A DNA stretch of 64,000 nt, taken from assembly GCF_009653635.1 (NCBI RefSeq), contig NZ_PPFD01000003.1, positions 124,001 to 188,000 on the forward strand, in the 5' to 3' direction. Position numbers and translations under genes: made by a program. This DNA comes from Endozoicomonas sp. OPT23. GTDB lineage: Bacteria; Pseudomonadota; Gammaproteobacteria; Pseudomonadales; Endozoicomonadaceae. The notes under the pieces are model-generated. The model was not told the DNA's origin and did no database searches. It was given only the letters and a program-made list of their open reading frames with translations. This document shows, in pieces, positions 1 to 19,305 of this stretch; positions within the stretch are counted from its first letter, which is position 1; every line of letters begins with the position of its first letter.

Positions 1-313
1 TTTCCGTAGGCAATTTATTTTGCCCGCTTTTATAATGACCGAATAAATAATATTTTCCGACTAAGTTTCTATTTTTAGCAAAGTGCTCAAGCATCAACCT
101 TATGGGCTTTGCTATAACAGAATGATTATATTCAGTTTTCTCGTAATATTTACATTGTACAGCACTTACTTCACCATCCTGTTTAACATCAACATCTTCA
201 ATACCTTCCACTTCGATACTATCAGTATCATTTTTAAGCGAAAGCACCTCCAAAATGGATTTATCAAACTGGTAGCAATAACCGCGAATTGTATCTATTG
301 CACTTCTATCCAA
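1..313 (-). CDS. N-terminal part of a DUF4297/Cap4-like nuclease, cut by the window edge
   Basis: The reverse strand is open from a TTG at 311-313 to base 1, giving 104 residues with no stop. A strong Shine-Dalgarno (AAGGAG, complement of 321-326) sits 7 nt before the TTG, which decides the start. Seen: an early GYCYQFDK segment, an acidic EGIEDVD strand, then VQCKYYE. This spacing of an acidic residue and a Q-x-K is typical of PD-(D/E)XK nuclease domains at the N-terminus of DUF4297/Cap4-type and some Avs-type antiphage proteins. The effector or sensor part would lie left of the window. It follows a membrane-protein gene on the same strand inside an integrated element. The nuclease assignment is by motif recognition; a defence role is inference. 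Confidence 0.6.
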   Translation of the reverse strand, partial: MDRSAIDTIRGYCYQFDKSILEVLSLKNDTDSIEVEGIEDVDVKQDGEVSAVQCKYYEKTEYNHSVIAKPIRLMLEHFAKNRNLVGKYYLFGHYKSGQNKLPTE

Positions 314-461
314 AACAAAACTCCTTCCCTGGTAAGGGTATACTTGGCTTTTGTCTAGCCTATAGCGCGCTTAACGAGCAAATGGTAGTTGGCTATAATC
401 CGTAACACAATACAGGAGCCAATCAGTATTTATCATGTAGAAACGCTTGGTATACACCGTG

Positions 462-737
462 TTATTCGTCATCAGACTCTTTAGAAGTTGATGCTTGTTT
501 TGCACCGAAGTAATATCCGACAACAACAAATATCACATTGAGTACACCCTCCATTAATTTGTCTAAGGATGTGATTAAGTCAATTTTACTGACAACAACA
601 AAACAAAGTGTACACACCAACGTGATTGCAATAATACCAGCACTATTATTTTTAACTTCGAAGAATTTACCAAAGACGAGAGAGAAAATTGATCTCCCAA
701 ATGTTCGTGCCCACCAACTTTTTGCTTTTTGATTCAC
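462..737 (-). CDS. small two-helix membrane protein
   Basis: This protein has 91 residues from the GTG at 735-737, chosen because GAGG lies about 7 nt upstream; an in-frame TTG at 747-749 is the alternative. Two hydrophobic segments are visible: one around AGIIAITLVCTLCFVVV, and a second near the C-terminus (VLNVIFVVVGYYFGA). The tail is short and acidic-polar. It sits about 150 bp upstream of the partial nuclease on the same strand, so the two may be co-transcribed. The DNA here is AT-rich compared with the chromosome to the right, which fits acquired cargo. I do not recognise a family. A membrane partner of the nuclease is only a guess. Confidence 0.55.
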   Translation of the reverse strand: MNQKAKSWWARTFGRSIFSLVFGKFFEVKNNSAGIIAITLVCTLCFVVVSKIDLITSLDKLMEGVLNVIFVVVGYYFGAKQASTSKESDDE

Positions 738-924: not shown

Positions 925-1137
925 ACCCTACCCATCTACGGCTCAAAATAGCTCTACAGTCCCTGCAAACAGTAGCCCCACTCCTTCACAGTGCGCTCTC
1001 CCCTCTTTTGAATTTCAGTAATTGTGACCGACATCGCTCTTACTCAAAAAATTCTATTCCCTGTGGCAACACAATTTTTTGACCCGTTCTCCTGCCAGTC
1101 CTACGCCAATTACATTCAAAAGAGAGGAAAACACCCC

Positions 1138-1368
1138 ATGAAAACATCACTTACCAACAGCATGCTTTGCACCCTGGTTCACTTGATCAAGAATCAGCTT
1201 GAAGCCAAGCGACATGAGATAGCCCAGCTCTCTCAATATACGACGAAAGTCATTCGTGAAAGTTACAACGCAGAAGTAGACGAACTGGTCACTATCAAGA
1301 CTTTACTGGAAGCAGAGCTGAAGGCACTGGATGAACCTCAGCCAGAGTTGAAATCCACCAAGAAGTAA
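1138..1368 (+). CDS. small coiled-coil-like hypothetical protein of the integrated element
   Basis: This is a 76-residue protein. The frame is open further upstream, but the ATG at 1138 is preceded by AGAGAGGAAAAC and gives a sensible start. The middle of the protein (KNQLEAKRHEIAQLSQ and onward) is rich in Lys, Glu, Leu and Gln with heptad-like spacing, so it is probably a helical bundle or coiled coil. The C-terminus is a charged Pro/Lys tail. It converges on the replication-initiator-like gene. No family is recognised; small accessory proteins of this kind are common in integrative elements and phage satellites. Confidence 0.5.
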   Translation: MKTSLTNSMLCTLVHLIKNQLEAKRHEIAQLSQYTTKVIRESYNAEVDELVTIKTLLEAELKALDEPQPELKSTKK

Positions 1369-1419: not shown

Positions 1420-2727
1420 CTATATGCCATAGCCCAGAAGCTCTCGTTCGGTATAGGAGTCTCGCAATCGGTCTATCAACTGGTGCTCCGTGGTCTCTTT
1501 GTCCTCATAGTGGAGCGTAATGCTGTTCCAGATGGTCATGGATTGCAGTTCATGGAGTACAGTATCGAATGGAACCGATTCTCTGGCACAGGCTGACAGG
1601 AAGTTACCCATCATCAGCTGGTAGTTCTTGCCGGTAAAGCTGGTTGCCTTCTTGTAATAACGCTTGTAGTGCAGGTTGTCCTTGTAGGAGGACTCAGGGT
1701 ACTTGAAGACCACATCGTCTTTAAGAATCGTCCAGAGTGGGTCGAGGTAGTTGCGATTGTACTTGAACTGGAAGGATTTCAGGCCGTATTGCCAGAGTGA
1801 GTGGATATGCTTGAGCACCTCGGAATAGGTGTTCATTCTCACCCCGATTTCGCCTGTCTTTATGTCACAGCTGCCCAGAGCGAATTGCTGAATCACCGAG
1901 TGATGGAAGCGGGTTTCAATCCGGAAAACATCTCTATCAGGGTCATAGCCGGATGAGCCATCGTCCAGCAGGGTACTGTTCCTCCATTTGTGTTCCATGT
2001 AATCGAATTTGTCGATCTTCTTGGCTTGCAGAGTTTTGTTATAGACCGCTAATTGGCTGGCATTGGCTGAACCAAAGCAAAAAGACTGACCTTTCTCGTA
2101 GACGCCTGTAATCTCATGCAGGTTAAACTCGGTTATTTCCAGCCCGTTGTACTGACTGCACTTCTTGGACTTACTGTGCATCCGATGGGCAAAATCCTGA
2201 GCAGGTTCCCAACCCTGAATATCTACCGCCAGATGTATTGCTGGGTAGTAGGCTTCAGCACCCACCAGTATCCGGTCTGCCAGTCGTTTCAGGTAATCGT
2301 CCACTTCCTTTGGCTTTCGGTTATCCAGGAACCAGGGGGAACACTCAATCTTCAGATGAGAAGCGGGAGACTCAGCCTTGGCATGGAACTGTTTGAACAG
2401 GATGACCAGCCCTATCTGGCTATTCTGGAGTCGGTACTGGTAGCCGGAGTTCTTACCGATCTTCGCCAATATCCAGTTCTGACCCAATAACTGGAACTTC
2501 TTCTCCTTGAGATCGAGTGAATGCTCAATATCGGTATGGAAATTGGGGTTCATGCGCCCACGAAAGAGCTGTCGAAAGGTATCGACATAGGTACCCACGA
2601 TCTGGAAGCCCTGCTCATCGAAATCAGCGATATGGCCGTAACGGGGATGCCGGAACACCAGCCCCTTGTCATCAGCCTCTAACGCCTTCTGATCTCCGTT
2701 CCATCGGAAGCGATCCAGTGTTCTCAT
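1420..2727 (-). CDS. replication-initiator-like protein (Rep_trans/phage replication type)
   Basis: This is a 435-residue protein with a clear Shine-Dalgarno (AAAAGGAG) before ATG 2725-2727. Seen: a central HLAVDIQGW strand, then a Gly-Ser-rich segment followed by AVYNKTLQAKK, then FRIETRFHHSVIQQF. These resemble the conserved core of rolling-circle initiators of the Rep_trans/replication-initiation-factor type, which share an acidic R/H-x-D-x-x-D strand, a Y-x-K motif and an R-x-E strand. I cannot assign the nicking tyrosine. It overlaps the upstream small gene by ATGA, so translation is probably coupled. On an element with an integrase, an initiator suggests autonomous replication after excision. 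The family call is by motif only. Confidence 0.55.
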   Translation of the reverse strand: MRTLDRFRWNGDQKALEADDKGLVFRHPRYGHIADFDEQGFQIVGTYVDTFRQLFRGRMNPNFHTDIEHSLDLKEKKFQLLGQNWILAKIGKNSGYQYRLQNSQIGLVILFKQFHAKAESPASHLKIECSPWFLDNRKPKEVDDYLKRLADRILVGAEAYYPAIHLAVDIQGWEPAQDFAHRMHSKSKKCSQYNGLEITEFNLHEITGVYEKGQSFCFGSANASQLAVYNKTLQAKKIDKFDYMEHKWRNSTLLDDGSSGYDPDRDVFRIETRFHHSVIQQFALGSCDIKTGEIGVRMNTYSEVLKHIHSLWQYGLKSFQFKYNRNYLDPLWTILKDDVVFKYPESSYKDNLHYKRYYKKATSFTGKNYQLMMGNFLSACARESVPFDTVLHELQSMTIWNSITLHYEDKETTEHQLIDRLRDSYTERELLGYGI

Positions 2728-3023
2728 AGTAATCTCCTTTTCAAACGACAGTTCACGTGAGTGTGTTTATTTTCTAACGTGCTACAGGGACGTCTCCCTG
2801 TGCGCGCTGCCGCAGGCGTTGCAGTCGCGCACAGGCCGTAAGCGGCGACGCCCAGCCCTGCCAAAGAGATCTGCGAACCGGATGGTGGTTGAAAAGCAGG
2901 TTGATCAGGATGGTGTAATTGCACGCGCAGCATGTCGGCGGCCTGTTGATTCAGCAGCGGAGAGCCAGAACACAACAGCGACGGCTGAAAGGCATCTATT
3001 TTTATTAAGAAGACGACGCTCAT
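2724..3023 (-). CDS. small hypothetical gene coupled to the Rep-like gene
   Basis: This is a 99-residue reading frame from ATG 3021-3023 (GGTGGTG upstream) to a TGA that overlaps the Rep-like start codon by ATGA. That overlap is the main support for it being translated. The product has a hydrophobic N-terminus, a Pro/Gln-rich middle and a basic C-terminus, with no recognisable domain. The 3' part contains GC-rich repeats of CGC/GCG character unlike the AT-rich DNA upstream, which may mean it is a degraded or chimeric gene. Confidence 0.35.
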   Translation of the reverse strand: MSVVFLIKIDAFQPSLLCSGSPLLNQQAADMLRVQLHHPDQPAFQPPSGSQISLAGLGVAAYGLCATATPAAARTGRRPCSTLENKHTHVNCRLKRRLL

Positions 3024-3107
3024 TATTAATTCACCACCCTGCTCACAGAGAGAACGTTTAATTAAATATACACACTCAAACTCATCAATCAATGTCAGAA
3101 TAAATTT

Positions 3108-3137
3108 AACCAACAATGACCAATAAAGACCAATAAC
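3108..3137. repeat. iteron-like 10-bp direct repeats
   Basis: Three units in a row with a 10-bp period: AACCAACAAT (3108), GACCAATAAA (3118) and GACCAATAAC (3128). They lie upstream of the Rep-like operon. A one-helical-turn period is typical of protein-binding arrays such as initiator iterons or operators. That role is inference. Confidence 0.5.
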
Positions 3138-3184
3138 GAGCGTTTTTAATTCAATGGACTTTGGAGCCTTGTCGCCGTGCTTGA

Positions 3185-3229
3185 TTAATTTTTTGCTGCG
3201 ATGGGGAAAATCGCAGACAAAAAAATTAA
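3185..3229. repeat. long imperfect inverted repeat upstream of the Rep-like operon
   Basis: The left arm 3185-3202 (TTAATTTTTTG then CTGCGAT) pairs with the right arm 3210-3229 (ATCGCAG then a run of A ending TTAA) around a GGGGAAA loop. The arm ends carry T and A runs, so it could terminate transcription in either direction, for example of the HTH gene at 3317-3505. It could also be part of a replication origin beside the repeats at 3108-3137. Otherwise the stretch 3024-3316 shows no gene. Confidence 0.55.
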
Positions 3230-3316
3230 AGCACAGCGCCATCCAAACTCCATTTAATAAAACACTCTAAGTCAAAAGCGAGAAAGACCTTCATAGACTA
3301 TAATTACCCTGTATTT

Positions 3317-3505
3317 CTAGACTATTTCGCTTTCATCAATCATCTTCTTGAGCTTGCGAACATTGATCAACCGACGCTTACCGATTTTGAAGGAAGGAAC
3401 TTGATTCTTACGAACCCAGACACGAACAGTCTCTATAGACACGCCCAACAATAATGCAAAATCATCCATAGTTTGAAGGAGTCGTTCATTATTATTGTTT
3501 TCCAT
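3317..3505 (-). CDS. excisionase/MerR-like helix-turn-helix protein
   Basis: This is a 62-residue protein from ATG 3503-3505, preceded by AAAGGAATTGGTA. The frame extends further upstream, but with poor, hydrophobic sequence. The body is a compact winged-HTH of the HTH_17/excisionase type: DDFALLLGVSIETVRVWVRK (recognition helix region), followed by a beta-wing VPSFKIGKRRLI. Such proteins bind DNA at attachment sites or promoters and commonly act as recombination directionality factors or small repressors next to an integrase. It is divergent from the integrase, with a 10-bp repeat array between them, which supports a role in controlling excision or integrase expression. Confidence 0.7.
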   Translation of the reverse strand: MENNNNERLLQTMDDFALLLGVSIETVRVWVRKNQVPSFKIGKRRLINVRKLKKMIDESEIV

Positions 3506-3600
3506 TACCAATTCCTTTTTGTTATCTATATTAATAAGAATACAAAACAAGGTGATTATTTCAATCAACCAAACATTCAAATTCTATTGACAAATCCGAC

Positions 3601-3694: not shown

Positions 3695-4684
3695 ATGGGG
3701 ATAAAGAAAGCAGGACAACAATGGAAAATTGATTTTAGGATTGGCGAAAAACGGTTTCGTCATACCGCCAAAACCAAAATCGAGTGTATTCAGTTTCGAG
3801 ACAAGGTGGTCACTCAGAAAAAATCCATTGCAGCCGGACACGATCCTCGTCACCTCGATGAAATGATTATGCTCTGGTACGAATCCCGAGGTGTAGAACT
3901 GGCAGACCATCAACGCACCCTGAAGAACCTGATGCGCTTCTGCGAGACTCTCGACAATCCTGTTGCTCAGGATGTGACACCAAGGGACTGGCATCACTAT
4001 AAGCGTATAAAGCGGGATGAAGGCATGGGGGATAAAACCCTGAATAACATGCTGGGCTACGTGAACGCCGTCTATAACTTCCTCCATAACAACGCCCTGA
4101 TCGAATACAGCAACCCGCTGCGCTCCATAAAGAAGATCAAAATTCATGAGAAAGAGCTGATGTATCTGAGCCGTGAAGAGATCGATATCCTGTTTCAGGA
4201 GATCAGGCAAGGCTGCATCAATAAGCACGTGTATATGATCACCAAAATCTGTCTGAGTACCGGCGCACGGTGGGGCGAGATTGAGAGCAGGAAGAACCAC
4301 CATTTCCAGAACAACCAGGTGCATCTTTCCTACACCAAATCCAAGAAGAACCGAGTCATTCCTTTAGAGCCTTCCCTGTTTCAGGAGGTGAAAGAACATA
4401 TCGAAGAACGTGGAGAGTTCACCAATAGTCAGGAAGCGTTCAGAAGAGCTCTATTGCGGTCTGGAGTAAGAACAGTGAAAGGACAGGCCAGCCATATCCT
4501 GAGACACACTTTCGCCAGTCACTTCATGATGAATGGTGGAAATATCAGGGTTTTACAGACTATTCTGGGGCATTCAGATATCAAGATGACAGAGAAATAT
4601 GCGAAGTTCAGTAAGGATCATCTGACAGATGCCGTACGACTGAATCCGTTAAGCGAGCCAAATGGACACTTCGTGGACAGGTAG
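3695..4684 (+). CDS. int: tyrosine recombinase (integrase)
   Basis: This is a 329-residue protein with AAAAAGGAG before the ATG. Seen: an N-terminal arm/SAM-like half, then a catalytic domain with the first Arg in STGARWGEIE, a His-x-x-Arg in SHILRHTFASH and the late His in LGHSDIKMTEKYAKF, where the Tyr before AKF is the expected nucleophile. These are the signature residues of phage-type tyrosine recombinases, which cut and rejoin attachment sites. The gene ends 61 bp before the 3' end of a tRNA-Ser gene, the classic arrangement when the integrase sits at the edge of its element and uses the tRNA 3' end as target. It appears intact. Confidence 0.93.
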   Translation: MGIKKAGQQWKIDFRIGEKRFRHTAKTKIECIQFRDKVVTQKKSIAAGHDPRHLDEMIMLWYESRGVELADHQRTLKNLMRFCETLDNPVAQDVTPRDWHHYKRIKRDEGMGDKTLNNMLGYVNAVYNFLHNNALIEYSNPLRSIKKIKIHEKELMYLSREEIDILFQEIRQGCINKHVYMITKICLSTGARWGEIESRKNHHFQNNQVHLSYTKSKKNRVIPLEPSLFQEVKEHIEERGEFTNSQEAFRRALLRSGVRTVKGQASHILRHTFASHFMMNGGNIRVLQTILGHSDIKMTEKYAKFSKDHLTDAVRLNPLSEPNGHFVDR

Positions 4685-4745
4685 GTAAATCTTAATTTGT
4701 TTTGGGATTTTTTCGCTTTAGAATCAAGCGTTTAGAGAAGAGAAA

Positions 4746-4833
4746 TGGCGGTGAGGGAGGGATTCGAACCCTCGATACGTTTCCGTATACACACTTTCCA
4801 GGCGTGCTCCTTCGGCCACTCGGACACCTCACC
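4746..4833 (-). tRNA. serT-like tRNA-Ser: tRNA-Ser(GGA)
   Basis: The reverse strand folds as a class II tRNA. The 7-bp acceptor stem is GGTGAGG (4827-4833) with CCTCACC (4750-4756), followed by a G discriminator and an encoded CCA (4746-4748). The anticodon loop contains CTGGAAA (anticodon GGA), with a long variable arm and TTCGAAT in the T-loop. The sequence is almost that of the enterobacterial tRNA-Ser(GGA). Its 3' end faces the integrase, so it is the probable chromosomal attachment site; the other att copy is not inside the window. Confidence 0.96.
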
Positions 4834-5048
4834 GTAAATCCGCATCAGCACTTGCTGGCCTTGCTCAGTAATGAGCTGTTTGCCGTGCCGTTTGCTGCGA
4901 ACGAGGCGTACTTTACACAAGCTCTTTGACAAAAGCAAAGGGGGACAAATACTTATTTAGATCTTTTCTGCACGATAGCTCCTGAAACCGTCACAGCTGG
5001 TTTTCCATCTCGAAAATCGAAGCTTTCTCATATGAGCTTTATCGTTAT

Positions 5049-5891
5049 TTATCCCCGCTTCAGCTTATTTAGCGAGAATACGCTGGAGAGAATCTTTTCT
5101 CGTAAAACAAATGGGATAAATCGCCCCAGAAGAGTTAAAGCCAGACTACCATTACCCAGCCTTACCAGAGAGCTGGAGGATTCATCTTCAATGTTATCCA
5201 CAAGATTTCGACAGAACTTCTCTGTTGACGTTGGATTCTTCTGAGAGGCATTGGCGCGTTTCCTTACTGCTGACTCAATGCCTTTATATAAAGAGCTATC
5301 ACTCCAGACTCGTTCCAGAGCAGCATTAGCATTGCGTGCAAAATCAGATTGTATTGCACCAGGATGCACGGTCATCACCCGTATGCCAAAAGGAGCCAGC
5401 TCCATTCTTAAACAGTCGGACAAAGTATTAATGGCCGCTTTTGATGCACAGTAAGTGCCAGAGAAAGGCGTTACACAGACGCCTGAAACACTTCCAATAT
5501 TTACAATCGTGCCAGCCTTCTTCTGTATCATTGCTGGAGCAAAGGCCTGAGCCAAAGCCATTGGTGAGATTACATTAGTGGCGAACTGCTGTTGCAACTC
5601 TTTGACCGGTGTTTCTATCAAAGGCCCCATAGAACCATAACCGGCATTATTGACCAGTAGATCCAAACGTCCATCGTATGACAGAATACGACCGGCTAGT
5701 TCATCTATCTGATCTTGGTCGTTTACATCCAGTAATGCTGAAACAATACCTATCGTTTCGAGATCAATGAGGCTTTCCGGATTTCTGGCCGTAGCCCAAA
5801 CCTTATAGCCTCTTGCATGTAACTCCAGAGCCAACCTACGACCAATACCTGTAGAGCAACCGGTTATGAGTGCATTCTTTTGATTATTCAA
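5049..5891 (-). CDS. short-chain dehydrogenase/reductase (SDR)
   Basis: This is a 280-residue classical SDR. Seen: the TGCSTGIGR dinucleotide-binding motif near residue 10, NNAGYG near residue 85, and the catalytic Ser-Tyr-Lys set in GSVSG and YCASK near residues 138-155. The start codon is TTG (5889-5891), with AAGGGCG about 9 nt upstream and no better ATG. Cytoplasmic NAD(P)-dependent oxidation or reduction of an unknown substrate is expected. The tail after residue 250 is hydrophobic (LALTLLGRFIPFVLREKI), possibly for membrane association. It stands alone, facing away from the tRNA. Confidence 0.85.
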   Translation of the reverse strand: MNNQKNALITGCSTGIGRRLALELHARGYKVWATARNPESLIDLETIGIVSALLDVNDQDQIDELAGRILSYDGRLDLLVNNAGYGSMGPLIETPVKELQQQFATNVISPMALAQAFAPAMIQKKAGTIVNIGSVSGVCVTPFSGTYCASKAAINTLSDCLRMELAPFGIRVMTVHPGAIQSDFARNANAALERVWSDSSLYKGIESAVRKRANASQKNPTSTEKFCRNLVDNIEDESSSSLVRLGNGSLALTLLGRFIPFVLREKILSSVFSLNKLKRG

Positions 5892-6141
5892 AACACGCCC
5901 TTACTGTCCTTTATATCCTGTCATGATTACAAAGTAGCAAGCTATGGAACAGTCATTTATACGTTAAGTGCAATTTTTAGATCTGTTTGTAAACCTTCTA
6001 ATTACTGCTAGTTTAATTCTTACATTCATGACACCCAAGGCTTGTTCGCAGGAGCAAGTGATAAATAAACAACTCCATATATTTATAATTAGCCAACTGA
6101 TTTATTCCTATCAAAAAGTCGTATTTCTCGACTACGGAATA

Positions 6142-7029
6142 ATGAATACAACAACGAACACTTCCATGAAACCATATCTACTTTATGTATTTGTACTCGC
6201 CTCATTTTGCTCATGGGCAGAGATACAGCCAGCCATCTTTAGACTTTATTGCCCGGAAAGGCTGGTACTCATGAGCAGTGACAGAGAAGAGCAAGAAAGC
6301 GCATTACTGAAAGCAAGTAAAGAGTTCCCGTTTTATAAAGAGTTGGTTAAGAGTGGTCTTATCTCTTTCAAGCATAACTTCATAATTCAGGAACCCGCCA
6401 TTTACTATTTGAAACAGGGATACATTCATTATCTTAATTCTAATAAGATCATTCTTGATTGTAATTATGAAACAAGATTCTTTTACGACACAGCGAAATC
6501 AGAAGCCTTTTTGGCTTACTCCTTAGATCCTTCAAGATCAGCTGAGACTGTTTACTCCAGCATTGGCAACGCTATTTCAAAACCCTGTGGGGCTACAAAT
6601 AAGCAACCAGACTGTTATGTTATGCCCGAGTTTATTCCTGTCGTTAAAGTAGGAGATATAACATTAACTCACGCAGACAGTGAAAGTAACTTGTCTGCCC
6701 TGCCTCAGCAGTTTCATTCCAACCATGAGGATTACACTGTTTACTACCCCTCAGGAGCAAACAGTTTGGCATCAATTTGTCCTGAGTTAAGAAATCTACA
6801 GAATCAGACTATTAATTTCATACGCCTGGAATGGAAGGCTCGACGACTCAAGCTTGAGTGCCAATTATTTTTTCATGACCCCAAATCATCAGTGAATCAG
6901 GAACTGACCTCAGAGCAGAACTCTCTGATATGGTCTCAATGGTTCTGGGAGTTAGCCCCTAACCCAAGACTCTGGCATGAGAGGTTCAGGCAAACGAGCC
7001 GTTCAGATAAACAAAGAAACGAACTTTAG
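6142..7029 (+). CDS. predicted exported protein of unknown function
   Basis: The frame is open from 5968, but the region before 6142 is AT-rich and reads poorly. From the ATG at 6142 (or 6166) the product begins with a signal-peptide-like stretch, MKPYLLYVFVLASFCSWAE. The mature part of about 270 residues has six or seven Cys, including an SKPCGATNKQPDCYV segment and SICPEL, suggesting periplasmic disulphides. No domain is recognised. It is divergent from the SDR gene and precedes a LysR regulator by about 140 bp, without an obvious operon link. Confidence 0.55.
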   Translation: MNTTTNTSMKPYLLYVFVLASFCSWAEIQPAIFRLYCPERLVLMSSDREEQESALLKASKEFPFYKELVKSGLISFKHNFIIQEPAIYYLKQGYIHYLNSNKIILDCNYETRFFYDTAKSEAFLAYSLDPSRSAETVYSSIGNAISKPCGATNKQPDCYVMPEFIPVVKVGDITLTHADSESNLSALPQQFHSNHEDYTVYYPSGANSLASICPELRNLQNQTINFIRLEWKARRLKLECQLFFHDPKSSVNQELTSEQNSLIWSQWFWELAPNPRLWHERFRQTSRSDKQRNEL

Positions 7030-7171
7030 CGATCAACACAGCATCTTCAAGCAAAGTCCAGTGGCTGACCCTGACGATATATAATTATGATAATGAGCTT
7101 TTTCCATAAATAACATTGATCATTTCATTTAAAATATCCTGACCATTATGCAGTTATCAGGCTATTGATTC

Positions 7172-8056
7172 ATGGTAAACCCAGTTTGGCTAAAAACCTT
7201 TATCACGCTGATAGAACAAGGTCATTTCACTCGCACCGCTGAAGTTCTGGCCATGACACAACCTGGTGTCAGCCAGCATATTAAAAAGCTGGAAGAGTAT
7301 TATCAGACTTCTCTGATCAATCGTTTTGGCAAACAGTTTGAACTCACACCCAGTGGTGAAACAGTCTACCGTTTTGCACAGAGCCTGATTGAGAGTGAAG
7401 TTCAGCTGCGTGAATCACTGATCAAGGATCACCCATACAGCGGCATCTGTCGTATATCTTCACCCGGCGCTTTAGGGCTGAACATTTACCCCAGGCTCAT
7501 AGAACTGCAAAAGCAATACCCTGAACTCAGCATTCATTATGAAGTAGCACCAAATCACAGAATAGAAGAAGAGCTGCTCAACAATCATATAGACTGTGGT
7601 TTGATGACTCGGAAACCAAAACAGGAAAGTGTTTTGTCTGCTCATGAAGTCAGTTCAGAACAACTCTGTTTAGTCGTTCCTGCCACTTTCAGTTTCACAG
7701 GCTATTCATCACTGAGGAAGCTGGGACTGATTGGCCACCCAGATGCCAGCCACCATGTCAGCCTGATGTTTCAGGAGAATTTTCCTGAGGAGTTCAGAGG
7801 CATTGGCAGCTTCCCTGATCACGGGTACGTCAATCAAATTAATCAGATTCTGGAACCCGTGGCGTCAGGGCTTGGTTTCACTGTTCTGCCTGTCTCTGTT
7901 GTGCAGAGTTTCTCCAGACCAGAGCTATTGAAGATGGTGGAGTTACCCTGCACAGTGGATGAAACCGTGTTTCTGGTGACCAAGACCCACAAACCACTGG
8001 CTTCAAGATACAGTTTTCTTTTCGAGACTCTTTTCAGCACTCCCTTCAGAGGATGA
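7172..8056 (+). CDS. LysR-family transcriptional regulator
   Basis: This is a 294-residue protein. It has an N-terminal winged HTH (LKTFITLIEQGHFTRTAEVL then TQPGVSQHIKKLE, residues about 5-45), followed by a periplasmic-binding-protein-like effector domain from residue 90. Length and layout are typical of the family. The 3' end overlaps the 3' end of the convergent rmuC by 54 bp. No divergent target gene is adjacent, so its regulon cannot be read from context. Confidence 0.9.
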   Translation: MVNPVWLKTFITLIEQGHFTRTAEVLAMTQPGVSQHIKKLEEYYQTSLINRFGKQFELTPSGETVYRFAQSLIESEVQLRESLIKDHPYSGICRISSPGALGLNIYPRLIELQKQYPELSIHYEVAPNHRIEEELLNNHIDCGLMTRKPKQESVLSAHEVSSEQLCLVVPATFSFTGYSSLRKLGLIGHPDASHHVSLMFQENFPEEFRGIGSFPDHGYVNQINQILEPVASGLGFTVLPVSVVQSFSRPELLKMVELPCTVDETVFLVTKTHKPLASRYSFLFETLFSTPFRG

Positions 8057-9520
8057 CTGATCGGCCTCAAGCGCTATATCACTGCCCAGATCAGCCGTTT
8101 CCAGTGTCTGCCTGGGTAGTTCTTTCTTCACCCTAACGCCCAGAGTGAGGAACTGGTCAGCCTGAGAAATCAGGTTGCCCCTGCCATGTTTGAGCGTTCC
8201 CAACGCATCGTCATAGGTGGCGCGGACATTCACTAACTGAGTGTCCAGCTTTTCCATCTTCTCGACAAAGATGCGAAGTTTGTCGTACACCTGACGGGCA
8301 CGGTCTGCCAATTTACGGGCGTTGGCATTCTGACGTTCAATGGTCCATAGGTTAGAAACTGTTCTCAGCGTTGCCAGTAATGTCGTAGGCGTGACCACGA
8401 CAATACGTTTCTCAAAGGCTTCGTTGAACAACTGCTGCTCATGCTGGAAAGCCACCATAAAAGCAGGCTCTATTGGCATGAACATAAAGACAAAATCCGG
8501 TGCTTTCACTTCTGGCAGAGACGGATAGTCCTTCTCGTTAAGGCTCTTGATATGGTTGCGAATACTCTGGATATGTCGCTTAAGAGCGACTGCTCTTTCT
8601 TCCTCGGTGTCTGCACTCACATAAGCCATGTAATCCACCAGCGACACCTTGGAGTCAATAATCAGGTGCTTCTGCTCTGGCAGATAAACAATAAAGTCCG
8701 GGCGTTTATTCTGACCTTCTTCATCCTTAAAGTTAGGTTCCCGCTCGTACTCCTGACCTTTTATCAGGCCGCTGCTTTCCAGAATTTTCTCTACCTGCAA
8801 TTCACCCCAGTTACCCTGAAGTTTTTTGTCACCTTTTAATGCTTTGGCAAGGTTGCCAGCTTCGTCAGTAATTCTCTGGTTCAGGGAATAAAGGGTTTCC
8901 AGCTGTTGTTTGAGTGCCGCACGACCTTCATTATCCGCTTTCTGTGCTTCTTCAACCTTGTTTCTGAAATCCCCTAACTGCTCTTTAAAAGGTTTCAGCA
9001 GATGTTCAAGCCGTTCCTGCTGCTGCTCGGAAACCAGTTTGCTTTTAGCGTCCAGAATATCGTTGGCAAGGTTGCCAAACTCTTCCTTCATGGCCTGTTT
9101 GTTTTCTTCCAGTTGCTGAAGGGAACGGGTGTTTTGCTTCTGCTGCTCGTCAAGGCGAACCTTCAGCTCTCTCACCTGTTTTTCTGCCAGAACCCGGGTT
9201 TCCTGTTCCCGCAGCTTTTCGTCTGTAAGAAGCTGAATCTGATTATCCCGCTCAGCAACTCGATGCCTTTCGTTCTGTAACAGAGCTTCCAGCTTGCCCT
9301 TGATAATCTGTAGATCTCTAATATCCTGCTGAGACTTTTCCCGAACAGCCACCAGCCTGTTATTTTCAGCGGTCAGTTCAGTAATTTTACTGCCCTGTTG
9401 CTGGGCAATGTACTCAACCTGCTGGCTACCGTTACCAGCCTTCTGCCGTGCAACCAACCAGCCCAGGGCAAAAGAAATAAGGGCAACAACCAGGACAATG
9501 CCCAGGGTACTCAAATCCAT
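8003..9520 (-). CDS. rmuC: DNA recombination protein RmuC
   Basis: This is a 505-residue protein. An N-terminal membrane segment (LGIVLVVALISFALGWLVA, residues 5-23) is followed by a long Gln/Glu/Lys/Arg-rich coiled coil to about residue 200, then the conserved RmuC domain: NWGELQVEKILESSGL, RPDFIVYLP, LIIDSKVSLVDY, FMFMPIEPAF and VVTPTTLLATLRT. The DSK and ExxxD-like strands fit the nuclease-like fold proposed for RmuC, which limits DNA rearrangements at inverted repeats. The C-terminus is a variable acidic/Ser-rich tail that overlaps the LysR gene on the other strand. Confidence 0.93.
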   Translation of the reverse strand: MDLSTLGIVLVVALISFALGWLVARQKAGNGSQQVEYIAQQQGSKITELTAENNRLVAVREKSQQDIRDLQIIKGKLEALLQNERHRVAERDNQIQLLTDEKLREQETRVLAEKQVRELKVRLDEQQKQNTRSLQQLEENKQAMKEEFGNLANDILDAKSKLVSEQQQERLEHLLKPFKEQLGDFRNKVEEAQKADNEGRAALKQQLETLYSLNQRITDEAGNLAKALKGDKKLQGNWGELQVEKILESSGLIKGQEYEREPNFKDEEGQNKRPDFIVYLPEQKHLIIDSKVSLVDYMAYVSADTEEERAVALKRHIQSIRNHIKSLNEKDYPSLPEVKAPDFVFMFMPIEPAFMVAFQHEQQLFNEAFEKRIVVVTPTTLLATLRTVSNLWTIERQNANARKLADRARQVYDKLRIFVEKMEKLDTQLVNVRATYDDALGTLKHGRGNLISQADQFLTLGVRVKKELPRQTLETADLGSDIALEADQSSSEGSAEKSLEKKTVS

Positions 9521-9632
9521 GTGTCATTCTCAAATAGAGTAGAATTACTACAAGAGTGCTAGACAAGCCAAGGCTTGGTCAATAGTCACAAATCTATAGC
9601 TGTCACCCGAGAACAGCTTCCAAGGACTGCCA

Positions 9633-10103
9633 TTGAATAAATCTGACATTCATTCCGCTCTGATCTCTGCTCTGGAACAGCAGTGGCAAGCGGCACTGAA
9701 AGCTGCTGATACGGCTCAGGAAGCCGCCAGCGACAGTGAAAACAAACCTGAAAATCAGTACGACACACTTGCTCTGGAGGCTGCTTATCTGGCTCATGGC
9801 CAGTCCGAGAGGGTACTGGAACTTGAACAGGCGTTGCTCACCTGTAAGAAAATGCCCATCAAATCATTCTCTGATGACAATACTATTGCCCTGGGCGCAC
9901 TGGTCGAACTCGCTGATGGCAAACAGTTGCTCTGGTTTTATCTCAGTCCTGTCGGTGGTGGGATTGTCCTGAACGTGAAAGGCTCAACTATCACCGTTAT
10001 CAACCCCAAAGCACCTGTTGCCTGTCTGCTGACAGGTAAACTCTGCGGTGATGAGATTGAGCTCCCCAATGGCGGTCTCTATGAAATTCTGTCAGTCTAC
10101 TGA
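9633..10103 (+). CDS. GreA/GreB-like C-terminal-domain protein
   Basis: This is a 156-residue protein starting at TTG 9633, preceded by AAGGA at a good distance; no suitable ATG is present. The N-terminal half is helical (EQQWQAALKAADTAQEAASDSE) and the C-terminal half is a beta-rich domain (LGALVELADGKQLLWFYLSP, VNPKAPVACLLTGKLCGDEIEL) resembling the FKBP-like C-terminal domain of GreA/GreB and Rnk proteins, which bind RNA polymerase. It is short of the full coiled-coil finger, so cleavage-factor activity is doubtful. It is followed after 30 bp by the DUF1415 gene. Confidence 0.65.
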   Translation: MNKSDIHSALISALEQQWQAALKAADTAQEAASDSENKPENQYDTLALEAAYLAHGQSERVLELEQALLTCKKMPIKSFSDDNTIALGALVELADGKQLLWFYLSPVGGGIVLNVKGSTITVINPKAPVACLLTGKLCGDEIELPNGGLYEILSVY

Positions 10104-10133
10104 GCGCATTTATTCAGTCAGGAAGTAAATACC

Positions 10134-10691
10134 ATGTCACGGGAAACTGAAGCCGTAAAACAGTGGTTACAGGATGTTGTTATTGGCCTTAACCTCTGCC
10201 CATTTGCAGCCTGGCCGTGGAATAAAGGACTGATTCGAATTGAATCGACAGAGGCAGAAAGTGAATCTGACCTGCTGGTAAAACTGCATGATGAATGCCG
10301 TCTTCTTGAGAACAGTTCGGCAGACGAACTGGAAACAACGCTGCTGGTGACTCCAAAGATGCTGGCTGATTTCTATGACTACAACCAGTTTCTGGACAGT
10401 GTTGACCAACTACTGGTTGAGTATCAGTGGGAAGGTATTTTTCAGATTGCCAGCTTCCACCCTGATTACTGCTTTGGTGGTACTCAGCCTGAGGATGCAG
10501 AAAATCTTACCAATAGATCTCCTTACCCGGTTCTTCATATCATCAGGGAAGAATCTCTGGAAAAAGCCGTGGAACAACACCCGGATCCGGATGGTATTCC
10601 AGACAGAAATATTGAAGCTATGAATAAACTCGATGACACTGAAAAGCAGAAGCTTTTTCCCTACCTTTTCACTGCTCAACCCGGCAGGTAA
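10134..10691 (+). CDS. DUF1415 family protein
   Basis: This is a 185-residue protein with conserved family features: VKQWLQDVVIGLNLCPFA at the N-terminus, QIASFHPDYCFGGT in the middle, and a NLTNRSPYPVLHIIREES segment near residue 130. Function is unknown; the conserved Cys, His and Asp could bind metal or cofactor, but this is not established. It is probably co-transcribed with the GreA/B-like gene and ends just before a good intrinsic terminator. Confidence 0.85.
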   Translation: MSRETEAVKQWLQDVVIGLNLCPFAAWPWNKGLIRIESTEAESESDLLVKLHDECRLLENSSADELETTLLVTPKMLADFYDYNQFLDSVDQLLVEYQWEGIFQIASFHPDYCFGGTQPEDAENLTNRSPYPVLHIIREESLEKAVEQHPDPDGIPDRNIEAMNKLDDTEKQKLFPYLFTAQPGR

Positions 10692-10707
10692 GGCACTCCT
10701 TAACAGG

Positions 10708-10737
10708 GCTCCTGCATTAATGTTGCAGGAGCTTTTT
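10708..10737 (+). terminator. intrinsic terminator
   Basis: GCTCCTGCA and TGCAGGAGC form a perfect 9-bp stem with a 7-nt loop, followed directly by TTTTT. It lies 16 bp after the DUF1415 stop codon. Confidence 0.88.
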
Positions 10738-10841
10738 GCTAATCCCGGGCAAAAGAAAAATCATCGGTTTCGCTGCCATTGATAAGCTCTGTCATTGTTC
10801 AGCTCGGCCATTGATAAGTAGCTGTTTGAAAAACCGGTTTT

Positions 10842-11213
10842 TCAATACTGCTCGGATACCTCAAAATGATCCCGGACCAGTTTCCATCGTTTAGGGTCCG
10901 TTTTTACCCACTCCTCAAGAGTGATAATTCCCCGCCCGACATTCATGGTCCAATCAGCGCCGAGATGAACCGTTATATCATCAAGCTGTTTTAACCAGAT
11001 ATTGTGATATTCAAGGTCCGTCGCCCCGGACTGGAGGAAAGGTCGCCAGAAGTGATCGATATTCTCCGAGCCATGAAAGCTCCCCATAGGTTTCACTTCC
11101 ATTTCTGCATCAGCCTGATAGGCCGACACGCAATAATCCACATCACCACCATTAAAATGTTTTACCCACTGTTTGCTGGCGACCAGCACCTCTGAAAGTG
11201 CGTTATGGCTCAT
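10842..11213 (-). CDS. NTF2/SnoaL-like small protein
   Basis: This is a 123-residue protein from ATG 11211-11213, with AGGGTG about 8 nt upstream; a GTG three codons earlier is also possible. The pattern of an N-terminal helix (VASKQWVKHFNGGDVDYCV), a short acidic turn and curved strands (DAEMEVKPMGSFHG, WTMNVGRGIITLEEWVK) fits the cone-shaped SnoaL/NTF2-like fold used by small isomerases and hydrolases, and by proteins with no known reaction. It follows the VOC-protein gene on the same strand by about 40 bp and is probably the last gene of that operon. Confidence 0.65.
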   Translation of the reverse strand: MSHNALSEVLVASKQWVKHFNGGDVDYCVSAYQADAEMEVKPMGSFHGSENIDHFWRPFLQSGATDLEYHNIWLKQLDDITVHLGADWTMNVGRGIITLEEWVKTDPKRWKLVRDHFEVSEQY

Positions 11214-11252
11214 CTTCAACACCCTGTATGCATCGCAAAAGGTGGCTGAAGT

Positions 11253-11591
11253 CTAGTCCATGTTTTCTGTGTCGTTTATTTCCACGTATTCGACAGGTGC
11301 CCCATTCTCTTCAATAAAGGCTACCCGTATGCCATCAGAAGGTTCAGTCGGTTCAATAATTACTTTTTTGCCTTCAATAGCCTTATCCAGATCATCCACC
11401 TGAAACGCTACATGGGGAATAGTCTTCACTAATTCAGGTAACGGGCAGTCGTCGTCAAACCGCATCCATTCAATTTTATGTTCAGTCGTTTCATAGCCAC
11501 TGACGGACATTTTCAGGTGAGGAATATATCGTTCTTCCTTTTTCTTTTCCCGGGTCGGAATGCCCAGATGGTGATACTTCAAACCATTCAT
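11253..11591 (-). CDS. VOC (glyoxalase/bleomycin-resistance) fold protein
   Basis: This is a 112-residue protein beginning LKYHHLGIPTREKK, with PHVAFQVDDLDKAI in the middle and AFIEENGAPVEYVEI at the end, which matches a single vicinal-oxygen-chelate module with candidate metal ligands His, His and Glu. The first codon overlaps the MFS stop by ATGA, so it is translationally coupled to the transporter and may act on the same substrate. The substrate is unknown. Confidence 0.75.
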   Translation of the reverse strand: MNGLKYHHLGIPTREKKKEERYIPHLKMSVSGYETTEHKIEWMRFDDDCPLPELVKTIPHVAFQVDDLDKAIEGKKVIIEPTEPSDGIRVAFIEENGAPVEYVEINDTENMD

Positions 11592-12874
11592 TCAACCGCA
11601 CTCTCTTGTTGTATATTGGATGTACTGCTGATATTGACCAGATTTTCCCGATATTTATCCTTCCAGCCTCGAGAAACTATCAATAAAAGCACAGCAAAGG
11701 CCGCTGGCAGCACTGCAGGCGCGAGCAGAAACCCCTGTTGGCAGAGCCATTCCAGCGTTAACGGCGTAGCACCACCAATAAAAGCAAACGCCAGATTATG
11801 GCTGAAAGCAACGCCAGAGAACCGAACCCCTGTTGGAAACAGTTCCACCATGGAAGATTCATAAATTCCCATCACCAACCCACCGGCCAGCAGCAGCGGA
11901 AGAAAGGCAATATAGGCGGGTAGCAGCTCATACCTTAGAAGCGTTACGGTAAAAGGAAGCATCAACATGATCAGAGCGCCTGCTCTCATCATTGGTAGTC
12001 GTCCGGTTCTATCCGAGCACCAGGCTACAAAAAGAGATAAAAGCGTCAGTGACAGAAAGAAGTTAAATGACGTAAATACCGGCGACTGTTGATCCTGAAG
12101 ATAATTAAACTGGTAGTTTGGCAGAAAAAACAAAGTCGAAATACAGGTGGCCGGAACCGCCGACACCAGGCTCCCACGCAATAACTCTAGCCGGTGTTTT
12201 GTCAGTAGCTGTTTAAGAGGAATTTGGCTTTCTATGGATTCCCTTTTTTCAAATACCGGAGTTTCCGTGAAAGTAGACCGGAGCCAGAAACTTAATAACC
12301 CCAGTAAACTGCCAAAAGCAAAAAGAATACGCCAGCCCCACTCAATCATGGCCGACTCACCAAACCAGAAATAAAAACCTGCAATGGCACCAGTCGCTAA
12401 TACATTGCCAGCGGTAACACCACTGACAATCAGGCCTGTAACCAAACCTCTTTTTCCTGCAGGAGAATGTTCGGCAGCGAAGACCACAGCACCGGGAATT
12501 TCACCACCTAGAGACAACCCCTGAAGCACTCTCAGCAACAGCAACAGAAGAGGAGCCATTGCCCCTATTGCTAACGTCCCCGGAAGCAGAGCTATACCTA
12601 GCGTCGACAGAGACATCAGAATAATAGAGCCGTTATAGGACCTCTTTCTTCCTCTGGTATCACCACTGTGGCTGTACAACAGTCCACCAATAAATCGAGG
12701 CAGATAGCCCGCAAAGAAAATGGTGAACACCAGCATGGTCTGGCTGCTATGAATAAAATCAGGAAAGAAGACTTTTCCAATCACTGGAGTCAGGAACACC
12801 ATCAGGGTGAAATCGTAGAACTCCAGGGCGGCGCTGAGGGTGGTGACTAATCTGAGACGGAACTGTGATTCCAT
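11588..12874 (-). CDS. MFS transporter, MHS (metabolite:H+ symporter)-like
   Basis: This is a 428-residue protein with about 12 hydrophobic helices. Seen: the family loop GDTRGRKRSY between helices 2 and 3, RVLQGLSLGGEIPGAVVF in helix 4, and GLVTGLIVSGVTAGNVLATG in helix 5, all typical of the ProP/KgtP/ShiA branch that imports organic acids, betaines or related compounds with protons. It heads a three-gene minus-strand operon (transporter, VOC protein, NTF2-like protein). An AraC-family regulator lies immediately upstream on the same strand and may control it. The substrate cannot be read from sequence. Confidence 0.82.
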   Translation of the reverse strand: MESQFRLRLVTTLSAALEFYDFTLMVFLTPVIGKVFFPDFIHSSQTMLVFTIFFAGYLPRFIGGLLYSHSGDTRGRKRSYNGSIILMSLSTLGIALLPGTLAIGAMAPLLLLLLRVLQGLSLGGEIPGAVVFAAEHSPAGKRGLVTGLIVSGVTAGNVLATGAIAGFYFWFGESAMIEWGWRILFAFGSLLGLLSFWLRSTFTETPVFEKRESIESQIPLKQLLTKHRLELLRGSLVSAVPATCISTLFFLPNYQFNYLQDQQSPVFTSFNFFLSLTLLSLFVAWCSDRTGRLPMMRAGALIMLMLPFTVTLLRYELLPAYIAFLPLLLAGGLVMGIYESSMVELFPTGVRFSGVAFSHNLAFAFIGGATPLTLEWLCQQGFLLAPAVLPAAFAVLLLIVSRGWKDKYRENLVNISSTSNIQQESAVE

Positions 12875-17580: not shown

Positions 17581-19305
17581 ATGATTCTTTTTCGCAAGGT
17601 TGCCCGTCTGCTGGCTCTTTTCCTGCTGCTGACCCTTTTGGCCAGCGTTGCTACCTGGCTCTATCTCAATCCTCAGTCCCATCGGCAGCAACTGTTTATC
17701 AATGGCACGGTTCTCACTATGGATGCCAGTAATACCGTTGCAGAAGCCATGCTCGTTTCCGGTAAAAAAATTCTGGCAACAGGCTCTCGTCATCAGCTGG
17801 AAAAACTTGCCAGCATTAACGCAGTAGACATTGACCTTGAAGGTAGAACGGTGATTCCGGGATTTATCGAAGCCCACGGTCACTTTCCAGCCAGCGGCCT
17901 TGATGCCATATCAGCCGACCTGAGAAACCCTCCGGCAGGTACCGTCAACACAATGGCAGAACTGTTACATAAGCTTGAAATTCAGTCGGGAGAAGAAACT
18001 GAAGGCTGGATTATCGGAACAGGCTACGATGACACACTTCTGAAAACTGAAACACCCTTAACACGCACAGAGCTCGATAAAGTTTCAAATACTCGCCCTG
18101 TCTTTGTTCGACATATTTCCGGACATATGGCTGTTATTAACAGCACTGGCCTGAAACTGCTTGGGTTCGAAAGTTCTTCCAGCTCGCCTTTCGGTGGCGC
18201 CATTGAAAAGGACGACGAAGGTAATCTCACAGGCGTTATCAAGGGTACGGCTCTTCACCCGGTGCTGGAGAAAGTGTTCAATCTCTCCTACAAAAAGCTG
18301 ATTAAAGCACTGGCGAATAGTGTTGAAGACTATATGGTTGAAGGTGTCACCAGTGTTCAGAATGGTTTGACGCGCCAACCGCTCTACTTTCCTTTAGCGG
18401 TCATGTCTGCCACCGGTTTTATTCCCCAAAGGCTCACCTTCTGGCCTGAAGAGAAACTGGCCGAACAGATTGAGAACAAGCACTCTTTCCCTGATGGCCA
18501 GAAGGTCAGAACCGGTGCTTTAAAGCTGGTGACAGATGGTGCTATTCAACTCTATACGGCTTATCTGTCTTCTCCCTACCAAACTGTTCCAGCAGGTAAA
18601 CCTGCAAGTTACAGGGGCAGCCCAGCCTTTCATGAAAACGAGCTGATTCGTACAGTACACAAATGGCATGACAGAGGCTGGCAAATCGCCTTCCACGCCA
18701 ATGGTGATGCAGCCATCGATCAGGTGCTGAATGCCATAGAGCTGGCTCAGAAAAAAAACTTCCGTGAAGACCATCGTCATACACTGGTTCACAGTCAGGT
18801 CATTCGCTCAGGTCAGCTCGACAGACTCAAACAGCTCGGTATGACCGTTTCTTTTTTCCCTGCTCTTATTTATTACTGGGGAGACAGACACAGGGAACTC
18901 TTTCTGGGCGAACAGCGAGCAAGCCATATCAACCCACTGAAAACCGCTATCGACAAAGGTATCCGCTTTACCATTCACAGTGATTCACCCGTTACTCCCG
19001 TAGATAGCATGGGTCTGATTAACTCAGCTGTTAACCGTCAGACCCGCAGCGGTAAAGTGCTTGGGGAGCATGAAAGAATTGATGTTATAAATGCTCTCAG
19101 AGCCGTCACCATTGATGCGGCCTGGCAGGTTTTCCGTGAAGATGAGGTTGGCTCTCTGGAATCAGGGAAACTGGCAGACTTCGTTATTCTCTCTGAAAAC
19201 CCTTTGGAAAAGCCCGATCACCTGACTGAGATTAAGGTAGAGGAAACCTGGATTGGCGGTGCCAAGCGCTACGACCGGGATCATTTTTCTGAACAGACTG
19301 AATAA
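17581..19305 (+). CDS. membrane-anchored amidohydrolase (YtcJ-like)
   Basis: This is a 574-residue protein. The N-terminal hydrophobic segment (LLALFLLLTLLASVATWLYL, residues 10-29) is an uncleaved anchor or signal. It is followed by the amidohydrolase_3 pattern: NGTVLTMD, PGFIEAHGHFPASG with the metal-binding HxH near residue 99, AFHANGDAAID, HTLVHSQVI and FTIHSDSPVTPVD, then the small beta domain ending GSLESGKLADFVILSENP. This family hydrolyses diverse amides and formamides with a metal centre; the substrate is unknown. It is probably periplasmic and lies 80 bp before the ChaC-like gene. Confidence 0.85.
   Translation: MILFRKVARLLALFLLLTLLASVATWLYLNPQSHRQQLFINGTVLTMDASNTVAEAMLVSGKKILATGSRHQLEKLASINAVDIDLEGRTVIPGFIEAHGHFPASGLDAISADLRNPPAGTVNTMAELLHKLEIQSGEETEGWIIGTGYDDTLLKTETPLTRTELDKVSNTRPVFVRHISGHMAVINSTGLKLLGFESSSSSPFGGAIEKDDEGNLTGVIKGTALHPVLEKVFNLSYKKLIKALANSVEDYMVEGVTSVQNGLTRQPLYFPLAVMSATGFIPQRLTFWPEEKLAEQIENKHSFPDGQKVRTGALKLVTDGAIQLYTAYLSSPYQTVPAGKPASYRGSPAFHENELIRTVHKWHDRGWQIAFHANGDAAIDQVLNAIELAQKKNFREDHRHTLVHSQVIRSGQLDRLKQLGMTVSFFPALIYYWGDRHRELFLGEQRASHINPLKTAIDKGIRFTIHSDSPVTPVDSMGLINSAVNRQTRSGKVLGEHERIDVINALRAVTIDAAWQVFREDEVGSLESGKLADFVILSENPLEKPDHLTEIKVEETWIGGAKRYDRDHFSEQTE

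Follow-up and report, generated by a model that had tools for sequence, protein, structure and literature searches.

The DUF4297-HerA locus

The DNA analysed here, a window of 64,000 nucleotides from Endozoicomonas sp. OPT23 (contig C23, positions 124001-188000, of genome G000), begins within a reverse-strand gene (window 2-313) whose translation, MDRSAIDTIRGYCYQFDK...EGIEDVDV...VQCKYYE, starts at a TTG codon and continues past the left edge. The initial annotation interpreted this fragment as the N-terminus of a DUF4297-type PD-(D/E)XK defence nuclease, carried as AT-rich cargo by an integrase-bearing element at a tRNA. Examination of a longer stretch of the contig (L003, C23:110001-129500) bears out each part of this interpretation. 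The nuclease N-terminus is real, the gene is intact when extended leftward (397 aa, no internal stop), and the integrase and tRNA-Ser lie to the right of the fragment. The GC content of the nuclease gene and its neighbour, which encodes HerA, is 0.29-0.38 in 500-base windows, the left-hand host DNA (L003:8501-11250) being at 0.40-0.46 and the rep part of the element at 0.45-0.54. Between two flanking repeats the genes are arranged in the order HerA, DUF4297, membrane ORF, 76-aa ORF, 435-aa rep, HTH protein, and integrase (Table 1).

Table 1. Features of the locus. Positions refer to the window unless contig C23 or stretch L003 is named.
Feature	Position	Strand	Remarks
HerA, P-loop ATPase	C23:121402-123120 = L003:11402-13120	-	572 aa; outside the window, directly after the nuclease
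Complete DUF4297 nuclease gene	L003:13120-14313	-	397 aa; TTG start; no internal stop
DUF4297 nuclease N-terminus	1-313	-	rest at C23:123120-124000
Two-helix membrane ORF	462-737	-	91 aa from GTG; 462-749, 95 aa from TTG
Cargo junction (end of DNA similarity to related elements)	997-1018		
76-aa ORF of the element family	1138-1368	+	convergent with rep
Pf1-type (Inoviridae) replication initiator (rep)	1420-2727	-	435 aa; YNK motif at Tyr229
17-base origin-like motif ACGTCCCTGTAGCACGT	2777-2793	-	edge of conserved block 2777-2842, upstream of rep
Excisionase-like HTH protein	3317-3580	-	87 aa as read from TTG
Tyrosine integrase of the element	3695-4684	+	PF00589, 4.4e-21
tRNA-side attachment repeat, 36 bases	4734-4769		identical to C23:121010-121045
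tRNA-Ser (GGA), integration site	4746-4833	-	

The nuclease matches the PADLOC model DUF4297 (PDLC02187) over residues 1-397 with an E-value of 8.7e-161 and scores 446.3 bits, far above chance, with the NCBIfam model NF042945 (cut-off 300). It aligns in full length with the sequence of PDB entry 8xav (9.5e-125). The HerA protein matches PDLC02188 (5.7e-298), NF042944 (868.1 bits, cut-off 850), and, over nearly its whole length, the sequence of 8xau (6.1e-273). Pfam misses the nuclease, the best match being Mrr_cat_2 at E 0.12, below its cut-off; PF14130, the profile named in the initial annotation, is absent from the Pfam matches at E up to 1. The two genes are joined by a TAATG stop-start overlap. 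Identity to the E. coli pair of locus L015 is 191/394 (48.5%) for the nuclease and 408/569 (71.7%) for HerA, and HerA is the better conserved protein in all eight loci where both genes were compared. The nuclease shares just 48.5% identity with its E. coli counterpart, so the phage range and the trigger may differ.

DUF4297 together with HerA is a named and structurally solved anti-phage system (An et al. 2024, PMC11291478; PDB 8xau-8xay). The residues mutated or named for the E. coli pair in sections 3 and 4 of that paper were transferred to our proteins by alignment to the pair of L015. The nuclease active site, D40/Q53/K55, has identical residues at identical numbers. The published Walker and arginine-finger residues of HerA, K157/S158/E426/E427/R455/K456, correspond to K158/S159/E428/E429/R457/K458, and the DNA contacts R284 and K287 correspond to K285 and K288, one arginine being replaced by lysine. 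Judged by homology, the nuclease and HerA are a DUF4297-HerA defence system of the already known type. As far as the E. coli system is described in PMC11291478, the gene order, the overlap, and the catalytic residues checked are the same, and the protein lengths are similar (397/572 aa here, 394/571 aa in E. coli), whereas the host lineage, the carrier, the upstream neighbour, and the start codon of the nuclease differ. Of the four other loci compared for this codon (L005, L006, L015, and L016), those of Colwellia and Thalassotalea share the TTG of OPT23, and the two from E. coli have GTG.

Fourteen other DUF4297 loci were collected from Colwellia, Thalassotalea, eight plasmids, and four E. 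coli genomes, three of the latter sharing one nuclease accession. A HerA, DUF87, or ATP-binding gene lies directly downstream of the nuclease in 13 of them; homology to HerA was measured in eight (L005, L006, L010-L013, L015, and L016), and the other five are assigned by annotation, the plasmid gene tables being incomplete. In the remaining one, a Rhizobium plasmid, the next gene listed encodes a transposase. The system is uncommon among the relatives of this host. Among the 37 genomes of the family the nuclease is present only in the OPT23 genome; elsewhere the nuclease model has matches in 2 of 369 class genomes and 3 of 398 phylum genomes, all below the cut-off. DNA similar to the system occurs in 12 of 5,426 E. 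coli genomes. No relatives of DUF4297 were detected in 50,697 phage records, nor in viral contigs by a pattern search of low sensitivity, and the link to inoviruses therefore rests on one element.

The two-helix membrane ORF

The ORF preceding the nuclease, described in the initial annotation as a two-helix membrane protein, is present and has two hydropathic segments (residues 36-54 and 65-83 of the 95-aa reading). A GTG at position 737, with GAGG 6 nt upstream, coincides with the end coordinate of that annotation and is in our view a likelier start than the TTG at 749. The same annotation proposed the ORF as the partner of the nuclease, and this proposal has to be abandoned: the true partner is HerA, immediately downstream, which was hidden by the edge of the window. 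Co-conservation of the ORF with the nuclease fails as well, since none of the 14 other DUF4297 loci has, in the 1 kb upstream of the nuclease, a small same-strand ORF with two helices as defined by a simple hydropathy rule. Relatives of the ORF were absent from the 36 other genomes of the family and from plasmid and phage collections (E up to 1), and none was confirmed in viral contigs by a low-sensitivity search. In the class sample, the 368 genomes besides OPT23 yielded two marginal matches (E 0.008 and 0.009, 33-34% identity), the former with internal stops. We rejected the membrane protein plus nuclease unit on these grounds, and place the ORF in the variable cargo, as a very doubtful member of the defence pair. 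Of the first reading, the DUF4297-type nuclease on a tRNA-integrated element stands, and the membrane protein as its partner does not.

The carrier element

Two 36-base repeats at L003:11010-11045 and 18734-18769, the latter covering the 3' end of tRNA-Ser(GGA), bound an element of 7,760 bp. Its integrase is 38.6% identical to that of a Pf-like element of Pseudomonas sp. DY-1. The HTH protein matches HTH_17 (5.3e-08), scores slightly below the cut-off of TIGR01764 excise (26.4 against 28.8 bits), and resembles orf90 of Pf1 (32% over 50 aa). The initiator matches phrog_1159 (6.9e-125) and has 36-39% identity with its counterparts in Pf1 and other Pf phages (best 15 of 28 matching phage records). 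Its motif AVYNK includes Tyr229, and YNK is also found in the Pf protein of AY324828. PA0727 of the Pf phage in P. aeruginosa PAO1 has been shown to act as the rolling-circle initiator, its catalytic tyrosine lying in SIYNK (PMC4863604).

Like the Pf phages of Pseudomonas (Inoviridae), the element possesses the YNK initiator, an excisionase-like HTH protein, an integrase, and an origin-like motif upstream of rep. Unlike them, it has no recognised coat, minor coat, DUF2523, or Zot/pI gene, carries cargo beyond rep, and contains the 76-aa ORF. No protein of the element matched the coat, minor coat, DUF2523, and Zot/pI reference proteins of Pf1 and DY-1 (blastp, E 1e-3), and only 589 bp separate xis from rep. 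The 76-aa ORF is listed for 14 elements, this one included, and for one of the 80 viral contigs listed below; its differences from the ORF of L043, the relative described below, are distributed over the codon positions as 15/9/50. For the three core proteins, comparison with L043 gives dN/dS of approximately 0.06 (Int), 0.21 (Xis), and 0.07 (Rep), most changes falling at third codon positions; these are rough values, with dS above 1 for Int and Rep.

Another ORF, lying before rep (172 aa at window 2724-3242, or 100 aa from an inner start), was considered as a gene and rejected. We read it as non-coding because it overlaps with the conserved block and because its changes relative to L043 have no third-position bias (22/30/18 by codon position; dN 0.30, dS 0.24).

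The carrier is best described, from its gene content, as an inovirus-derived and perhaps satellite-like element. In the open-access papers searched we found no report of such a carrier with DUF4297-HerA. To the left of the element, a partial att copy of 27 bases occurs at L003:5234, accompanied by about 180 bp that resemble an element end, and a 233-aa ORF (L003:6269-6970) weakly matches PifA (8.8e-10). The region L003:5209-11010 may, as these traces suggest, be what is left of an island that inserted earlier at this tRNA-Ser.

Related elements and origin-like DNA

The rep initiator was identified in 8 of the 37 family genomes, belonging to two of the eight genera. We compared 14 fetched loci (L043-L056) and L017 of the own genome with the window element, leaving out rep pieces at G017:C418, G017:C388, and G009:C1 near 3.488 Mb. 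Zot/pI is encoded in 9 of 17 rep-bearing elements (L017, L044, L046, L047, L049, and L051-L054, of which L051, L053, and L054 lie on short contigs) and was not found in seven (L003, L043, L045, L048a, L048b, L050, and L056). L055, near a contig end, was counted in neither class. In the seven loci without Zot, no ORF matched the Zot, minor coat, DUF2523, and coat references (E 1e-3), and the stretch from xis (int in L056) to rep, where the others have Zot, measures just some 0.4 to 1.2 kb. The contigs that hold L043 and L045 break off on the cargo side, and L056 matches neither the 76-aa ORF nor the excisionase reference.

Approximately 80 kb to the right of the element, L017 (C23:206001-225000) contains int, xis, a TspB-like minor coat gene, DUF2523, Zot, and rep, with 35-base repeats at 3072 and 17920. 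No major coat or ssDNA-binding gene was recognised in it, and its small ORFs have no functional match. With its assembly genes, this Pf-like prophage could be a helper within the same genome.

Eleven of the 15 loci (L043-L053) lose their DNA similarity to the window element at L003:14997-15018; in L017 and L055 it stops further in (15099 and 15161), and L054 and L056 have no match at the cargo junction. The block just upstream of rep is conserved more strongly than rep: in L017, L046-L049, L052, and L053 it is 81-87% identical over 59-69 columns, and the match spanning rep in these seven loci is 67-70% identical.

The core of this block, ACGTYCCTGTAGCACGT, has 14 exact sites in the 37 family genomes, all 14 located 49-109 bases 5' of a rep match, and the reversed pattern has no sites in these genomes. 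The exact 17-base motif occurs in four of the seven elements without structural genes, being absent from L048a, L050, and L056, as well as from the contig-end L055. In Pf1, a copy differing at two bases lies in the intergenic region that precedes the initiator gene; 0.04 are expected, and 8 of 200 shuffles had one. The 203 bases around the motif form a better fold than shuffled sequence (z -2.76), one of 200 shuffles being as good. The motif was also detected in at least 80 viral contigs (L084-L163); among the contigs listed, all 80 encode a Pf-type initiator, and 64 of them matched Zot in a search with three queries, 16 having no match. It looks like a specific tag for Pf-type inoviruses, and may be a replication origin or a packaging signal.

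Variable cargo

The closest comparison is provided by L043 (genome G024), which occupies the same tRNA-Ser among the same host genes, with six matches of 72-83% identity within window positions 4702-12859. Its int-xis-rep-76-aa part is 79% identical to that of the window element over 3.8 kb, and the alignment ends near window position 1000. Beyond this point L043 carries an OLD-family gene (PADLOC Old, 9.8e-93), and the window element the membrane ORF and DUF4297-HerA. L050 (G009) also resides at tRNA-Ser(GGA) with matching host DNA alongside (70-74% over three stretches); its cargo is DRT5 (2.6e-202).

In most elements rep is directly followed by the 76-aa ORF, with the cargo further out. In the stretch from rep to the far att site, L045 has a Fic protein, L047 a PDC-M68/LmuB-like protein, L048a a NACHT domain protein (by Pfam only), and L051 and L052 methyltransferases. 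The SinI-type restriction enzyme and C5 methyltransferase of L017, and other ORFs in L044 and L045, speak against a single shared slot, being located between rep and the 76-aa ORF.

Twenty larger ORFs chosen from 11 elements served as a cargo sample. PADLOC matches below 1e-20 were obtained in seven elements (L043, L045, L050, L017, L047, L051, and L052), although those of L017, L051, and L052 are wholly or partly DNA methyltransferases and need not be defence. Nothing convincing was seen in the cargo scanned from L046 (one ORF), L048b, and L053. Ten neighbouring proteins taken as a control also produced matches, namely RmuC (E 2.7e-113) and PifA for the 233-aa ORF mentioned above (8.8e-10). 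PADLOC alone is accordingly unspecific, and the enrichment of defence genes in the cargo is only suggestive. A 933-aa protein encoded beyond rep at L053:5199-8000 has no Pfam or PADLOC match at E 0.01 and is a candidate new defence gene.

Proposed function and mobility

By analogy with the E. coli system, the pair would defend Endozoicomonas sp. OPT23 against phages. For that system, PMC11291478 describes double-stranded DNA degradation activated by assembly and leading to abortive infection. In OPT23, HerA would likewise form a hexameric dsDNA translocase on which twelve DUF4297 subunits stack. The assembly would activate the ATPase and an unspecific dsDNA nuclease, and upon infection both phage and host DNA would be degraded and the infected cell would die. 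The nuclease gene starts with TTG or GTG in the loci compared and the HerA gene with ATG, although twice as many nuclease as HerA subunits make up the published complex.

The carrier would integrate at tRNA-Ser, and its own Int, Xis, and Rep would drive excision and rolling-circle replication. It would borrow coat and assembly proteins from a Pf-like phage, by which the element would presumably be mobilised as by a helper, and the defence cargo would guard host, element, and helper against lytic phages.

We hold it to be very probable that an inovirus-derived integrative element of 7.76 kb at tRNA-Ser carries the two-gene DUF4297-HerA anti-phage operon as cargo. A new module made of the nuclease and the two-helix membrane protein, the latter acting for instance as a membrane-anchored sensor or effector, would agree with the location of the ORF in the cargo region, on the same strand and 148 bp upstream of the nuclease, and with its plausible GTG start. 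It is very improbable given that the arrangement recurs in none of the 14 other loci, that the ORF has only marginal relatives, and that the nuclease already has a known partner. Scarcely any weight should be given to a housekeeping machine for DNA-end processing, similar to the archaeal HerA-NurA: HerA does match the repair HerA models, but weakly (NF040937, 132 bits, cut-off 800), and the pair passes the anti-phage HerA and DUF4297 cut-offs and fails the repair ones. Moreover, the nuclease is absent from the other 36 family genomes, and both genes reside on a mobile element.

The nature of the carrier is more evenly balanced. Our tentative proposal, which we rate close to an even chance, is that the Pf-like phages and their relatives without structural genes in this family are phage and satellite lineages sharing the initiator, the 76-aa ORF, the origin-like DNA, and a cargo region in which anti-phage systems are swapped, so that satellites shuttle defence genes. 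Going by the sequences, the systems in the proposed swapping region would include DUF4297-HerA, OLD, Fic, DRT5, NACHT, and restriction-modification. It is also quite possible, if somewhat short of an even chance, that the carrier is a decayed Pf-like prophage that has lost its structural genes and left a defence operon stranded, rather than a mobile satellite. Decay is indeed seen among the relatives, rep being broken in L048a and reduced to fragments in G009 and G017, and the incomplete occurrence of the exact 17-base motif among the elements without structural genes points the same way. Against it, Int, Xis, and Rep are intact in the window element, as are its att repeats and its motif, and elements without structural genes recur (7 of 17, six with an unbroken rep) in both genera that hold the initiator. 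The low dN/dS and the third-position changes favour a maintained element over a decayed prophage, though the values are rough, as noted above. The co-positioned L050 and the missing motif copies weigh on opposite sides and leave our estimates unchanged.

Comparison with filamentous phages and their satellites

Since the defence pair is already known, the idea of a nuclease plus membrane protein can be dispensed with, and the more interesting part is the inovirus carrier that lacks structural genes and changes its defence cargo. Filamentous phages are small and their host can survive, so a relative without structural genes but with cargo would be a compact defence vehicle. If the satellite proposal is true, filamentous-phage satellites would be shuttles of defence genes against other phages. 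Inovirus satellites such as RS1 lack structural genes. In the same way, the window element has no recognised structural genes and keeps rep, the integration genes, and the origin-like motif. RS1 of CTXphi is described as a small element that is tied to a filamentous helper phage and counteracts the phage repressor, and a plasmid is called an inovirus satellite in a title cited within the same paper (PMC11389934). Unlike RS1, the window element carries anti-phage cargo and has the Pf type of replication, and its use of a helper is inferred.

The filamentous prophages of marine Vibrio, as described in PMC11630473, are small and have one variable locus, often near the border, that may hold defence genes; 8.5% of the variable loci contain a complete defence system. 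Those are prophages, whereas the type of carrier seen in OPT23 occurs in a form without structural genes too, and its cargo here is DUF4297-HerA.

The same tRNA locus holds elements with DUF4297-HerA, OLD, and DRT5 in three species, which makes the exchange of cargo directly testable. In G009, Pf-like elements are stacked at one site, L048:372-14697, with three complete or fragmentary integrase genes and recurring att copies.
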